NCBI RefSeq assembly: GCF_000732485.2
Contig: NZ_JAQV02000023.1
Coordinates: forward strand, 1-64,000
DNA length: 64,000 bases
Direction: 5' to 3'
Origin: Bacillus sp. SJS
Lineage (GTDB): Bacteria; Bacillota; Bacilli; Bacillales; Bacillaceae
A program made the position numbers and the translations under genes. Shown here piece after piece: positions 6,681 to 62,876 of the stretch (within the stretch, counting starts at the first letter, position 1; the number at the start of each line of letters is the position of its first letter). The notes under the pieces were generated by a model. It searched no databases. It saw nothing but the letters and a program-made list of their open reading frames with translations, and was not told the DNA's origin.

Positions 6681-6840
6681 CCCAACTGCGTACCGAAATA
6701 ACCCAATTCATCCCGATTCTAGCACCAAATTTTCTTATCTGAGCTACGTTGACTAGCCATTGTAGCAGTTTCAAACCAATATATGTGACTTTCGATCATA
6801 AATCCGTCATATTAATCCCAGGCAGCACCGTAAAAAGACT

Positions 6841-6990
6841 CCAATCCCAGGCAAGAATGCCAGGCAAAACCGCAATGCCAGTTAAAACCGAAATGCCAGG
6901 CAAAACCGCAATGCCAGTTAAAACCGAAATCCCAGGCAAAACCGCAATGCCAGGCAAAAAGGAAATCTCAGGCAACACAGGGATAAAAAG
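6841..6990. repeat. 18-bp tandem repeat
   Basis: About seven units of AATGCCAGGCAAAACCGC run from 6856. Units alternate between a GGC and a GTT variant, giving a 36-bp higher-order period in the first four. A perfect 18-nt phase keeps reading frames open across the array, which explains the apparent ORFs here, but no ribosome site or recognised protein is present. Confidence 0.8.
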
Positions 6991-7071
6991 CACAATGCCA
7001 GGCATCAACCGGAAAAAGCACAATGCCAAGCATCCCTATCCTCACCATAACTCACCCCACTACACATCCAA

Positions 7072-22336: not shown

Positions 22337-22559
22337 TTCTTGTCGCCTCCTGGTTTTGTTGTCCACTATTCATTTAGCACGAATGAGGACAATTAAAACC
22401 TCTGAATACTCTTTTGGTGCTTTTGGACTATTTGTTTTGATGATGGTTGGCCGATGGATCAAACCACTTGTGTTAATGAAAAGAATGATGTACTATATGG
22501 TAACTAGCTGCATTGTTCGTAATGATAATAAAGTTTTAACCTTTAAGCTGTAATAGGGA

Positions 22560-22746
22560 GTTTTACATTGAAGCGAAAATGGCAAGCCTTCGTCTATATG
22601 ACAGGGAGGACGTCATTTAGCGTTTCTGCGAACACCCACTTGGAGAAGTGGTGGTTTAAAACTTTCTTATAATGAGTTACGGCAAAAGCGGCTACTTCAT
22701 TTAATTTCTAAACCAGCTTTCTAACGGAGGCTGGTTTTCCTTTTGT
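22560..22746 (+). ncRNA. Candidate small RNA or leader ending in a terminator
   Basis: The gap 22337-22818 has no supported gene, yet it contains a plus-strand terminator (stem AACCAGC/GCTGGTT at 22711-22736 followed by a T-rich tract) that does not belong to any annotated plus-strand gene. Upstream of it is a CACCCACTTG/AAGTGGTGG hairpin (about 22633-22655). I recognise no known RNA family and see no convincing promoter; the 5' end is a guess. Confidence 0.3.
22710..22746 (+). terminator. Orphan Rho-independent terminator upstream of ywdI
   Basis: AACCAGC pairs with GCTGGTT across a loop of about 12 nt, followed by TTCCTTTTG. No plus-strand gene ends just before it. Confidence 0.6.
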
Positions 22747-24989: not shown

Positions 24990-25244
24990 TGCACTGACCC
25001 CCGCTCAGGTAAAGGAGTAAAGCTCCGTCCCCATTCTGTTTAGGCCTTACTCTCCCAAAGGTTTGTCAGGAGCTGCCTTTGGCCCCTTCTGCGGTGAAGC
25101 GCTGAGGGTCAGTGCAGTGCACTGACCCCCGCTCAGATAAAGGACTAAAGCTCCGTCCCCGTCCTGTTTCCGCCTTACTCTCTCAAAGGGTCGTGAGGAG
25201 GTGCCTTTGCCCCCGTTTGCGGTGAAGCAGTGAGGGTCAGTGCA
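24990..25244 (-). repeat. 127-bp TIR element, tandem dimer (locus A)
   Basis: Two direct copies of exactly 127 bp (24990-25116 and 25118-25244) are separated by one G. Each starts TGCACTGACCCCCGCTCAG and ends in its inverted counterpart, here slightly shortened to GAGGGTCAGTGCA. The orientation is opposite to loci B and C, judged by the internal TTCACCGCA and GGGGACGGAG blocks. It fills most of the gap between the convergent genes ywdK and gerQ. Confidence 0.9.
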
Positions 25245-29164: not shown

Positions 29165-29417
29165 GGGGCAGTCCCGTCATGCTTCACCGCATTAGGGGAC
29201 AGAGACCGCACAGCTCAAGCCCTTATGTATCAACGGTTTGCAGAGGTGGTGCCGGAGCTTTAATACGGTAAAATTGCAGGGGACTGGCACGGTGCCAGTC
29301 CCGTCATGCTTCACCGTAACGGGGGACAGAGACCGCACAGTGCAAGCCCTTAAGTATCAATGGTTTGAAGATGCGGTGCCGGAGCTTTAATACGGTAAAA
29401 TTGCAGGGGACTGGCCC
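29165..29417 (+). repeat. 126-bp TIR element, tandem dimer with variant ends (locus D)
   Basis: Two direct copies of 126 bp (29165-29290 and 29292-29417) are separated by one G. The ends are GTGCCAGTCCC and GGGGACTGGCAC rather than TGCACTGACCCCC, but the internal TTCACCG...GGGGACAGAG and GGTGCCGGAGCTTTA blocks match locus C. The outer end of copy 1 is partly decayed. Related scraps (CCAGTCCCCACCGCA) continue to about 29520. The gap 29146-29588 holds no gene. Confidence 0.88.
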
Positions 29418-33863: not shown

Positions 33864-34118
33864 TGCACTGACCCCCGTTGAATCACCGCACTGGGGGCCA
33901 GAGCAAGAAATCAGCCAGTCTGCGCCAGATCGGCGATAGCAGAGTGAGGGGACGGAGGTTTAGTGCTTTAGCAGAGCGGGGGTCAGTGCACTGCACTGAC
34001 CCCCGTCGAATCACCGCAGCAGGGGCCAGAGCAAAAAATCAGCCAGCCTGCTACACATCGGCGTTCGAAGGGTGAGGGGACGGAGGTTTAGTGCTTTAGC
34101 AGAGTGGGGGTCAGTGCA
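33864..34118 (+). repeat. 127-bp TIR element, tandem dimer (locus B)
   Basis: Two direct copies of exactly 127 bp (33864-33990 and 33992-34118) are separated by one C. Ends are TGCACTGACCCCCG and CGGGGGTCAGTGCA (copy 2 has GTGGGGGTCAGTGCA). Internal blocks ATCACCGCA, GGGGACGGAG and TTTAGTGCTTTAGCAGAG are shared with locus C while the middle 50 bp differ. CTTTGCA heptamers lie directly before it. Confidence 0.92.
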
Positions 34119-34160: not shown

Positions 34161-34338
34161 GTGCCAGTCCCCACATTCATCACCGCAGCAGGGGACAGAG
34201 GCCATACTCTTTGAAGCCTTGCCCAGCAAGGGTTTAAAAAGCGGGTGCCGGAGCTTTCGTTCACTAATGAAGCGCGGGTCAGGAACCCGCGCCGGTTATT
34301 ATCTGCAAACCGAATAGCAAAGCAAGAGTCAGTGCAAA
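34161..34338 (+). repeat. Decayed single copy of the TIR element plus an end remnant
   Basis: GTGCCAGTCCCC at 34161 opens a degenerate unit with ATCACCGCA, GGGGACAGAGG and GGTGCCGGAGCTTT blocks in the right order; it fades around 34286 in GCGCGGGTCAGGA. A separate GAGTCAGTGCA end remnant at about 34328-34338 overlaps the last codons of the acetyltransferase gene. Confidence 0.7.
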
Positions 34339-43150: not shown

Positions 43151-43268
43151 GTTTTGTTTTTTTTGCTTTGTTTTTGTGCTTTGTTTTTGTGCTTTGTTTT
43201 TGAACTTTGTTTTTGAACTTTGTTTTTGAACTTTGTTTTTGTGCTTTGTGCTTTGTACTTTGCACTGA
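43151..43268. repeat. 13-bp then 7-bp CTTTGTTTTTGWR microrepeat
   Basis: Six copies of a 13-bp unit CTTTGTTTTTGTG or CTTTGTTTTTGAA are followed by 7-bp units CTTTGTG and CTTTGTA, and the last CTTTGCA runs straight into the end of the 127-bp element at 43261. A similar CTTTGCA run precedes locus B. Confidence 0.8.
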
Positions 43269-43515
43269 CCCCCGCCGCTTCACCGCATCAGGGGACAGAG
43301 GAAGAGAGCTGCAATTCCTTGGTACGTAAGAGTTTACAGGGTGCGGTGCCGGAGTTTTAGTGCTTTATCAGAGCGGGGGTCAGTGCACTGCACTGACCCC
43401 CGCTGCTTCACCGCATCGGGGGACAGAGGAAGGGAGCTGCAATCCCTTGGTACGTAAGAGTTTACAGGGTGCGGTGCCAGAGTTTTAGTGCTTTAGCAGA
43501 GTGGGGGTCAGTGCA
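43261..43515 (+). repeat. 127-bp TIR element, tandem dimer (locus C)
   Basis: Two direct copies of exactly 127 bp (43261-43387 and 43389-43515) are separated by one C. Ends are TGCACTGACCCCCG and CGGGGGTCAGTGCA; the two copies differ at only a handful of positions. Internal blocks: TTCACCGCATC, GGGGACAGAGGAAG, TACGTAAGAGTTTACAGGG, GGTGCCGGAGTTTTAGTG. It lies between the convergent genes argS and uvsE, followed by a C/A-rich stretch with GCACAAACCAAGTACCAACC repeats to 43580. Confidence 0.93.
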
Positions 43516-60202: not shown

Positions 60203-60320
60203 TGCGAAAGCGCTTGGAATGAAGTTCTGCTAAGTGCGCGACGTCCTGTCGCAACGCAGAACTGACCCGCGTCTTGTGGGCCTCCGACTCCTCGAGGGGC
60301 TAGGCGCTGGAGCTGGACAG
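60203..60320 (+). repeat. AAGCGC...GGAGCTGGAC intergenic element, copy 1
   Basis: A 118-bp element that opens GCGAAAGCGCTTGGAAT and closes TAGGCGCTGGAGCTGGACAG, with an internal palindrome AGTTCTGC...GCAGAACT around CGACGTCCTGTCG. It shares this core with 62634-62820. It lies between the spo0F promoter and its coding region. Confidence 0.8.
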
Positions 60321-62633: not shown

Positions 62634-62876
62634 AGAAAAGCGGAGGGCGCTGGGGTAAGGAAGTTCTGCTAAGGCCGCGACGTCCTGTCGCAACGCAGAA
62701 CTGACCTGCCTCCTGCAGGCCTCACCTGTGAGAGACGGTGGAGCAGGGACTGACAAAGTCGCTCTTTGACTTTGACAGGGCCGGCGAAGCGTCCGAACAG
62801 CTAGCCGCCGGAGCTAGACAAATAGAAAAGCGGAGGCGCTCAAGTAAGGAAGTTCTGCTAAGACCGCGACGTCCTT
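62634..62876 (+). repeat. AAGCGGAGGCGC...GGAGCTAGAC intergenic element, copies 2 and 3
   Basis: Copy 2 (62634-62820) opens AGAAAAGCGGAGGGCGCTGG and closes GCCGCCGGAGCTAGACA; it contains the same AGTTCTGC...GCAGAACT core as 60203-60320 plus about 70 extra bases. Copy 3 (62821 to about 62876) is truncated after GCGACGTCCTT. Similar AAAAGCG...GGAGCTAGAC elements are familiar between genes in Bacillus-type genomes. The rest of the gap to 63162 has a GAAGTTCTG/GGAACTTC inverted repeat (62936-62983) and no gene. Confidence 0.8.

Follow-up and report, generated by a model that had tools for sequence, protein, structure and literature searches.

The stretch of DNA analysed here (the window; 64,000 nucleotides of Bacillus sp. 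SJS) holds at position 43261 two 127-bp units with inverted ends, which stand head to tail around a joint of a single base, and further dimers of this kind are present at 33864 and 24990 (Table 1). The coordinates given for these three pairs in the preliminary description were exact, all six units being 127 bp long with a joint of 1 bp. The 33864 dimer lies between convergent genes according to the open reading frame list of the window. The pair at 29165, which had been described as a related 126-bp pair, was found to be real, with 126 + 1 + 126 bp, but it belongs to a second repeat family with different ends. We therefore refer to the 127-bp repeat as family 1 and to the second repeat as family 2. 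An array of 13-bp repeats (TTTTTGTGCTTTG) occupies positions 43158-43262, directly to the left of the 43261 dimer, and 18-bp tandem repeats (AATGCCAGGCAAAACCGC) in seven registers are present at 6838-6999 of the window.

Table 1. Coordinates of the repeat units, their joints and the RAYT gene (window positions unless a contig is given)
Feature	Position	Strand	Remark
Family-1 unit 1 of tandem dimer, ends TGCACTGACCCCCG / CGGGGGTCAGTGCA	43261..43387	+	127 bp
Joint (C), centre of joint palindrome	43388..43388	+	1 bp
Family-1 unit 2 of 43261 dimer	43389..43515	+	127 bp
Family-1 unit 1 of tandem dimer	33864..33990	+	127 bp
Joint (C) of 33864 dimer	33991..33991	+	1 bp
Family-1 unit 2 of 33864 dimer	33992..34118	+	127 bp
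Single family-2 unit beside 33864 dimer	34161..34284	+	84.5 bits, family-2 profile
Family-1 unit 1 (element orientation) of tandem dimer	25118..25244	-	127 bp
Joint (C in element orientation) of 24990 dimer	25117..25117	-	1 bp
Family-1 unit 2 of 24990 dimer	24990..25116	-	127 bp
Family-2 unit 1 of dimer, outer 3' end like joint	29165..29290	+	126 bp
Joint (G) of GGGACTGGCAC-G-GTGCCAGTCCC palindrome	29291..29291	+	1 bp
Family-2 unit 2 of 29165 dimer	29292..29417	+	126 bp
RAYT gene (Y1/HUH nuclease)	G000:C23:142819-143382		elsewhere on the same contig

The home genome (G000; 36 contigs, 4.15 Mb) was scanned for units by end motifs in fetched stretches. The exact end word GGGGGTCAGTGCA occurred 58 times in the 4.15-Mb genome versus 0 times for the reversed-letter control, and the family-1 repeat is thus not a product of chance. 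The scan gave 45 complete family-1 units, of which 43 measured 127 bp, one 126 bp and one, which contains Ns, 122 bp. They make up 21 tandem dimers, every one with a 1-bp joint, and three remaining units at C34:8308, C22:180 and C22:1965. The first two of these face contig ends via a matching inverted-repeat sequence (ACTAGCGWTGCAC), suggesting that an insertion sequence has split a single dimer into these two units, and C22:1965 is a lone unit. The earlier claim that the element always occurs as a dimer fails on this lone unit and on the monomers, trimers and larger clusters found in relatives. The joint base, which had been given as C, is C in element orientation at the three window loci but varies genome-wide (8 T, 6 A, 4 C and 3 G among the 21 dimers). 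The bases flanking the dimers are T on the 5' side in 18 and A on the 3' side in 15 of the 21. An origin of the joint from a duplicated flanking base was considered and rejected, because the joint base is shared with the 5' flank alone in 6 dimers, with the 3' flank alone in 6, with both flanks in one and with none in 8, following no single rule.

Both ends of the family-1 unit carry TGCACTGACCCYC and its inverse, and the unit consensus is TGCACTGACCC...GGGTCAGTGCA. Many units also carry TAAAGCA or ACCGCA inside the left end, opposite TGCTTTA or TGCGGT inside the right end. Among the profile matches listed across four genomes, 133 of 150 are 127 bp long and the gap is exactly 1 in 58 of 62 neighbouring pairs. 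Copies within a locus are more alike than copies at different loci, as had been noticed from the window, with a mean difference of 0.20 for 19 within-dimer pairs of 127-bp units and 0.36 between loci. The 46-bp middle differs by 0.605 between loci, which is nearly random, and by 0.325 within a dimer. No positional signal was present between family-1 loci (first-first 0.360, second-second 0.361, first-second 0.362). That the length of 127 bp is held amid a near-random middle lies beyond every model offered here.

A profile search of G000 with PF01797 found two Y1 genes. One of them is the RAYT gene of Table 1 (REP-associated tyrosine transposase), which lies between two family-1 dimers, one 113 bp upstream and the other 266 bp downstream. 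Its product scored 92.5 bits with NCBIfam NF047646 (cut-off 80), and the RAYTs of a second genome of the genus (G002) and of Metabacillus mangrovi scored 86.1 and 85.2 bits, respectively. PDB 4er8 (E. coli TnpAREP) was the sole PDB sequence match of the home RAYT at E <= 1 (E 1.1e-4), and the model of the M. mangrovi orthologue (pLDDT 89.9) had 4er8 as its top fold match (E 1.1e-9), followed by IS608 transposases. H59, H61, Y118 and N122 are invariant in 35 aligned RAYTs and P123 is conserved in at least 90%, the HUH motif taking the form NHIH and the Y---NP motif the form YIH[ML]NP. The proteins are 182-187 aa long, with Y1_Tnp as the only Pfam domain above cut-off and no C-terminal helix-turn-helix (HTH) in Pfam. 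The repeat flanks the RAYT gene and also has dispersed intergenic copies, as is expected of a cognate repeat, and the GGGGTCAG at the ends of the RAYT-flanking dimers agrees with the motif GGGGWSAS. RAYT matches at E <= 1e-20 were found in 49 of 100 genomes, and many of these genes are flanked by other palindromes. Among 114 RAYT flanks scanned for ungapped tandem similarity, a 127/128-bp period was confined to loci of this genus (L094, L095, L096 and L108), in a scan in which flank sizes differ between loci and which gapped or very diverged dimers would escape.

The second Y1 gene of G000 (G000:C26:161889-162319; L063:1890-2320) scored 76.8 bits with NF047646, below the cut-off. About 10 copies of a 41-bp repeat containing TTTGTCTGAC stand in tandem ahead of this gene and are perhaps its own repeat family. 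At three loci of other genera (L196, L198 and L199; Bacillus salacetis, Rossellomorea vietnamensis), a 25-bp repeat carrying the palindrome TGAGCCAGGCTCA stands in arrays just after RAYT-like genes, with about 20 copies in L199, and represents another tandem form of RAYT-linked repeat. A non-coding stretch of about 200 bp adjoining the RAYT gene (L062:2884-3110; L108 about 1130-1370) is nearly identical by eye between G000 and another genome of the genus (G001), despite RAYTs that are only about 62% identical; the stretch has no Rfam match at E <= 0.1.

The family-1 joint, allowing up to 2 mismatches, was found in four of the 100 genomes, the home genome among them, all of one genus, at 22 places in G000, 6 in G001, 24 in G002 and 8 in G003, and at none in the congener G004. 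The family-2 joint was found in the same 4 of 100 genomes, at 28, 41, 25 and 33 places, respectively, and again at none in G004. The G002 RAYT, 85% identical to the home RAYT, is flanked on one side by a family-1 dimer; on our own reading, the other side is a dimer whose joint has been deleted. The G003 RAYT, with 67% identity to the home RAYT, has family-2 dimers on both sides, as does the G001 RAYT, which is 61-63% identical and lies in two pieces owing to a broken frame. The same helicase gene adjoins the RAYT gene in G000, G001 and G002. Because the type-1 RAYTs (G000 and G002) are flanked by family 1 and the RAYTs of G003 and G001 by family 2, the sequences indicate that RAYT type and repeat ends switch together across the four genomes. 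In G004, the profile of family 1 gave 66 weaker hits (best E 2e-15) and that of family 2 gave 16, which probably represent a third, more distant repeat family; the RAYT of this genome is about 48% identical with an in-frame stop.

In family 2, the dimer itself has distinguishable halves. Among 31 dimers picked by their intact joints, some of them orthologues across species, 20 have a GGGTCAG- or GGGTCTG-like outer 3' end, which differs from the joint GGGACTGGCAC-N-GTGCCAGTCCC, and 25 have an outer 5' end without the joint's CCAGTCCC. In the 20 heterodimers, the subterminal difference was 0.386 for first-first, 0.380 for second-second and 0.541 for first-second comparisons, and when the labels were swapped within dimers 500 times, no swap reached the whole-unit value or the 3'-subterminal value. 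In the same test on the 12 dimers that are left without near-identical ones, 0 of 500 swaps reached the whole-unit value and 1 the subterminal value; the middle alone carried a weak positional signal (27 of 500). Since the halves can be told apart across loci by position, the family-2 heterodimer appears to be inherited or copied whole. Heterodimers of this kind show that a tandem pair can turn into a single element whose outer ends differ from its inner ones.

We consider it probable that the 127-bp unit is a non-autonomous element of the REPIN/TIRtron type that is mobilised or kept by the RAYT and whose standard form is the tandem dimer. Mobilisation in trans, one of the explanations first put forward, is supported by association, in that dimers stand on both sides of the RAYT gene and the type of RAYT changes with the repeat family in four genomes, but no insertion or excision event was seen at the compared loci. 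The reading draws on the architecture, the copy numbers, the RAYT association, the matched change of RAYT and repeat, vertical inheritance and some collapse, all of them read from sequence. As a mechanism, the cognate RAYT, a Y1/HUH nuclease acting on single-stranded DNA, would recognise the unit ends. On one DNA strand, the outer ends of a dimer would pair and the joint would form a hairpin of at least 12 bp, so that the dimer would present a long stem tipped by a REP-like hairpin, and the RAYT may nick the unit ends or the joint hairpin. In single-strand DNA folding, 17 of 20 dimers paired their outer ends and formed a hairpin at the joint, a result that is partly trivial, since such ends let any dimer fold likewise. 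The dimer would then be what was copied and inserted in trans, which is clearest for the family-2 heterodimers, and the RAYT may help keep family-1 arrays tandem. In Y1/HUH nucleases, as outlined in passages of PMC8266576, a tyrosine cuts single-stranded DNA and the freed 3'-OH can prime replication or rejoin strands, and both routes might serve the spread of REPs and BIMEs. Simple transposition leaves the constancy of 127 bp with a near-random middle unexplained.

A role of the RAYT in keeping arrays tandem was examined by counting loci. Family-1 counts were taken with profile R1, listed down to 88.9 bits and corrected by locus reading, and their depth is unequal, a second profile having been applied to G000 and G003 only, so that degraded single units in G001 and G002 may be missed. 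With these counts, G000 has 22 tandem loci and 1 single, G002 has 24 and 2, G001 has 6 and 9, and G003 has at least 19 and at least 9 among the matches listed. The tandem loci of G002 comprise 18 dimers, 1 dimer split by an insertion, 3 trimers, 1 tetramer and 1 cluster of five, which is built as 1+2+2 with 8-bp spacers. Where the type-1 RAYT is present, 46 loci are tandem and 3 single, versus 25 and 18 where it is absent (Fisher p 4.7e-5; the G003 part among the matches listed), a comparison of two genomes with two whose loci are not independent, so that Fisher's test overstates independence. The difference of the type-1 genomes from G001 alone gave p 2.9e-5 and that from G003 alone 0.006 (G003 among the matches listed). 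Another cause may lie behind the state of two of the nine monomers in G001, those at rpsD-tyrS and 3653053, which adjoin a putative IS3-like remnant. For family 2, counted with profile R2 and including a few entries that are partial or at contig ends, G000, which lacks the type-2 RAYT, has 28 dimers and 8 single units, and G003, which has an intact type-2 RAYT, has at least 48 and at least 11 among the matches listed, with no larger array in either. The tandem state of family 2 thus did not differ between G003 and G000 (p 0.79; G003 among the matches listed). Upkeep of the tandem state by the RAYT is therefore suggested by the sequences of family 1 and unsupported by those of family 2, and it may be that heterodimers recombine less.

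The same loci can be read differently, in that the element arrived as a dimer in a single insertion and has since been inherited as a passive tandem repeat, which recombination between the halves homogenises, expands or collapses, the RAYT having no role in copy number. Comparison of orthologous loci bears on this alternative. Dimers at orthologous loci of G001 and G002 have the same orientation. At C23_69193, the first half in G000 matches the first in G002 and the second matches the second, and this dimer is therefore older than the species; such position-specific orthology, which favours the alternative, was also found at C15_306243 and for one half of C19_216534. Some dimers have collapsed to monomers: at C22_87111 and C23_69193, the G001 monomer fits only one G000 half (0.05 vs 0.31 and 0.07 vs 0.41), so that the other half must have been lost. 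The alternative also accommodates the G002 trimer at C16, in which the first half is doubled (u1, u1-like, u2). At C23_24990, the G002 halves are 0.06 apart and yet 0.36-0.38 from those of G000, which argues for homogenisation within lineages. C24_158750 has one unit in G002 and two near-identical units (0.06) in G000, which fits a fresh duplication in G000 or a loss in G002. Thus, the repeated local duplication or gene conversion that had been suggested fits in part, given the homogenisation within lineages, the one extra copy of the G002 trimer and the collapse to monomers, but not for several old dimers with position-specific orthology between species. No clean empty site was found at 13 orthologous loci, the flanks being too diverged or occupied. 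At four shared sites (C24_158750, C19_130408, C15_381836 and C15_233067), G000 has a family-1 dimer and G001 a family-2 dimer, and the two are apparently independent occupants.

Passive inheritance would further explain that family 2 stays dimeric without its own RAYT, and the family-1 arrays of three or more units in G002 (5 seen vs 7.9 expected) differ little from a geometric distribution. However, unequal recombination should spread array sizes, and no array of three or more units was seen in family 1 of G000, family 2 of G000 or family 2 of G003, for which the geometric expectation is 5.5, 6.9 and 11.9, respectively; nor does a passive repeat account for the 9 single and 6 tandem loci of G001, which lacks the type-1 RAYT, against 1 and 22 in G000. 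We regard this alternative as possible, though we lean away from it.

A stronger form of the RAYT-linked reading would be that the RAYT counts to two, turning a monomer into an exact 127+1+127 dimer and holding arrays at two copies against recombinational collapse. For example, an end would be nicked, one extra round of copying primed and the strands re-joined, and the joint hairpin, which only dimers have, would signal copying to stop. We consider this rather unlikely as it stands; if true, an enzyme would set the number of copies at which a chromosomal repeat is kept.

Another alternative is that the host selects the repeat as a DNA site or 3'-end structure, such as a terminator, attenuator or nucleoid-protein site, that takes the form of a dimer of fixed length, with mobility being secondary. 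The constancy of the unit length in the home genome and across the four genomes, as counted above, is in line with such a site, and so is a preference for gene 3' ends. Of the 22 family-1 loci, 13 lie between convergent, 9 between co-directional and none between divergent genes according to a crude ORF caller, which is wrong for at least one locus (33864), so that 13 is a lower figure; insertions are mostly downstream of genes. In a folding test, five single units did better than their shuffled versions (z -2.4 to -5.3), for which the inverted ends alone may be a sufficient cause. The alignment fold of 43 units has a terminal stem only, no covariation was found inside the unit, mutual information over 73 units shows no middle helix, and base-pair counts in the units are not above those of shuffles. 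RNA structure was accordingly rejected as the main explanation. Rfam gave one 6S RNA and two Bacillaceae-1 matches in the window (22502-22698, 60214-60280 and 62653-62719) and none at the elements, nor any match with E <= 0.1 on L062 and L141. The idea of a structured 3'-end RNA that works as a dimer, raised in the preliminary description, is thus unsupported: covariation is absent, the middle is hardly conserved and Rfam has no match at these positions. The absence of covariation and a middle diverged almost to saturation also speak against a host-selected site in general, as do several orthologous sites in congeners that hold a monomer, the other family or nothing similar, and T-runs that stand, by eye, before and not after the element at many loci; this alternative is quite improbable. 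A MITE of the ordinary kind, moved by a DDE transposase and bounded by 14-bp inverted ends, would share the terminal inverted repeats, the lack of coding capacity and the intergenic copies, but is highly improbable, as no target duplication is evident by eye in the 10-bp flanks of 21 dimers (with no clean empty site for comparison) and the transposase gene found between these ends is a Y1 RAYT.

We compared the RAYT-linked tandem dimer with known systems. Among Bacillus repeats, bcr1 of the Bacillus cereus group resembles family 1 in being non-coding and mobile, but it is about 155 bp long and is not known to be linked to a RAYT or to form dimers. This repeat is named in PMC3733652. The TIRtron/TIRYT system, as described in part of Di Nocera et al. 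(2013, PMC3733652), consists of a RAYT-like gene and terminal-inverted-repeat elements with GGGGWSAS. The present system is like it in that a Y1 RAYT-like gene is flanked by TIR elements forming an intergenic repeat family (the TIRYT passages of PMC3733652; PMC6006769), in the motif, which is present here as GGGGTCAG at the ends and often as GGGGACAG inside, and in that some TIR elements are reported there as dimers or clusters. It differs from the TIRtrons of those passages in that a fixed head-to-tail dimer of 127+1+127 bp is the standard form and in that two repeat families swap along with two RAYT types. Subclass 2.1 of Quentin et al. (2018, PMC6006769) is characterised, in the section on this subclass, by a C-terminal helix-turn-helix extension and a median of 238 aa; the Y motif YIHLNP of the G002 and G003 RAYTs fits this subclass as outlined there, whereas the RAYTs here are 182-187 aa long with no C-terminal HTH in Pfam. 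Pseudomonas REPINs, in the relevant passages of Bertels and Rainey (2011, PMC3116915), are mostly single with some tandem clusters, single REPs being interpreted as remnants. The REPIN/REPtron of that account shares with our element two inverted ends, shortness, an extragenic position and an adjoining RAYT, and it differs from the 127-bp unit, for which the tandem dimer with a one-base spacer is the rule and which lacks the GT[AG]G tag of canonical REPs (0 of 43 family-1 units within the first or last 6 bases). The BIME/TnpAREP system of E. coli, in the part of PMC8266576 that covers it, likewise has inverted REP pairs often in consecutive tandem and a Y1 nuclease, and its TnpAREP (4er8) is the nearest solved structure to the RAYT here; our system differs from these BIMEs as outlined there in a copy number of mostly two, a 1-nt joint, another sequence and a Bacillaceae host.

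Among open-licence papers, we found no description of an element that is normally a dimer joined by 1 bp and whose families switch in step with the RAYT. The tandem-dimer element thus appears to be an unusual variant of the known RAYT-linked mobile repeats of bacteria. How RAYTs spread and keep REP-type repeats is a question of this field that the system addresses, with two matched pairs of RAYT and repeat in one genus and one or two units per locus as a simple readout. The existence of natural strains with and without the matching RAYT turns the action of the RAYT on one versus two units into a PCR question.

In both families, putative insertion sequences were observed directly at, or next to, the joint or the end of a dimer (G000:C34:8434 / C22:178; G000:C15:321652; G002:C1:4085297-4086587), and insertion sequences at REPs are known (compare the passages on this subject in PMC1525189). 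In G002, the region C1:1752568-3411225, which makes up 39% of the chromosome, has no family-1 unit among the matches listed, and the chance of such a gap would be about 2.6e-6 if the 26 G002 clusters were uniform. GC skew, sampled sparsely in G002, points to an origin around 0.2-0.4 Mb and a terminus around 2.5 Mb, and family-1 elements seem to avoid the terminus-proximal part of this chromosome.
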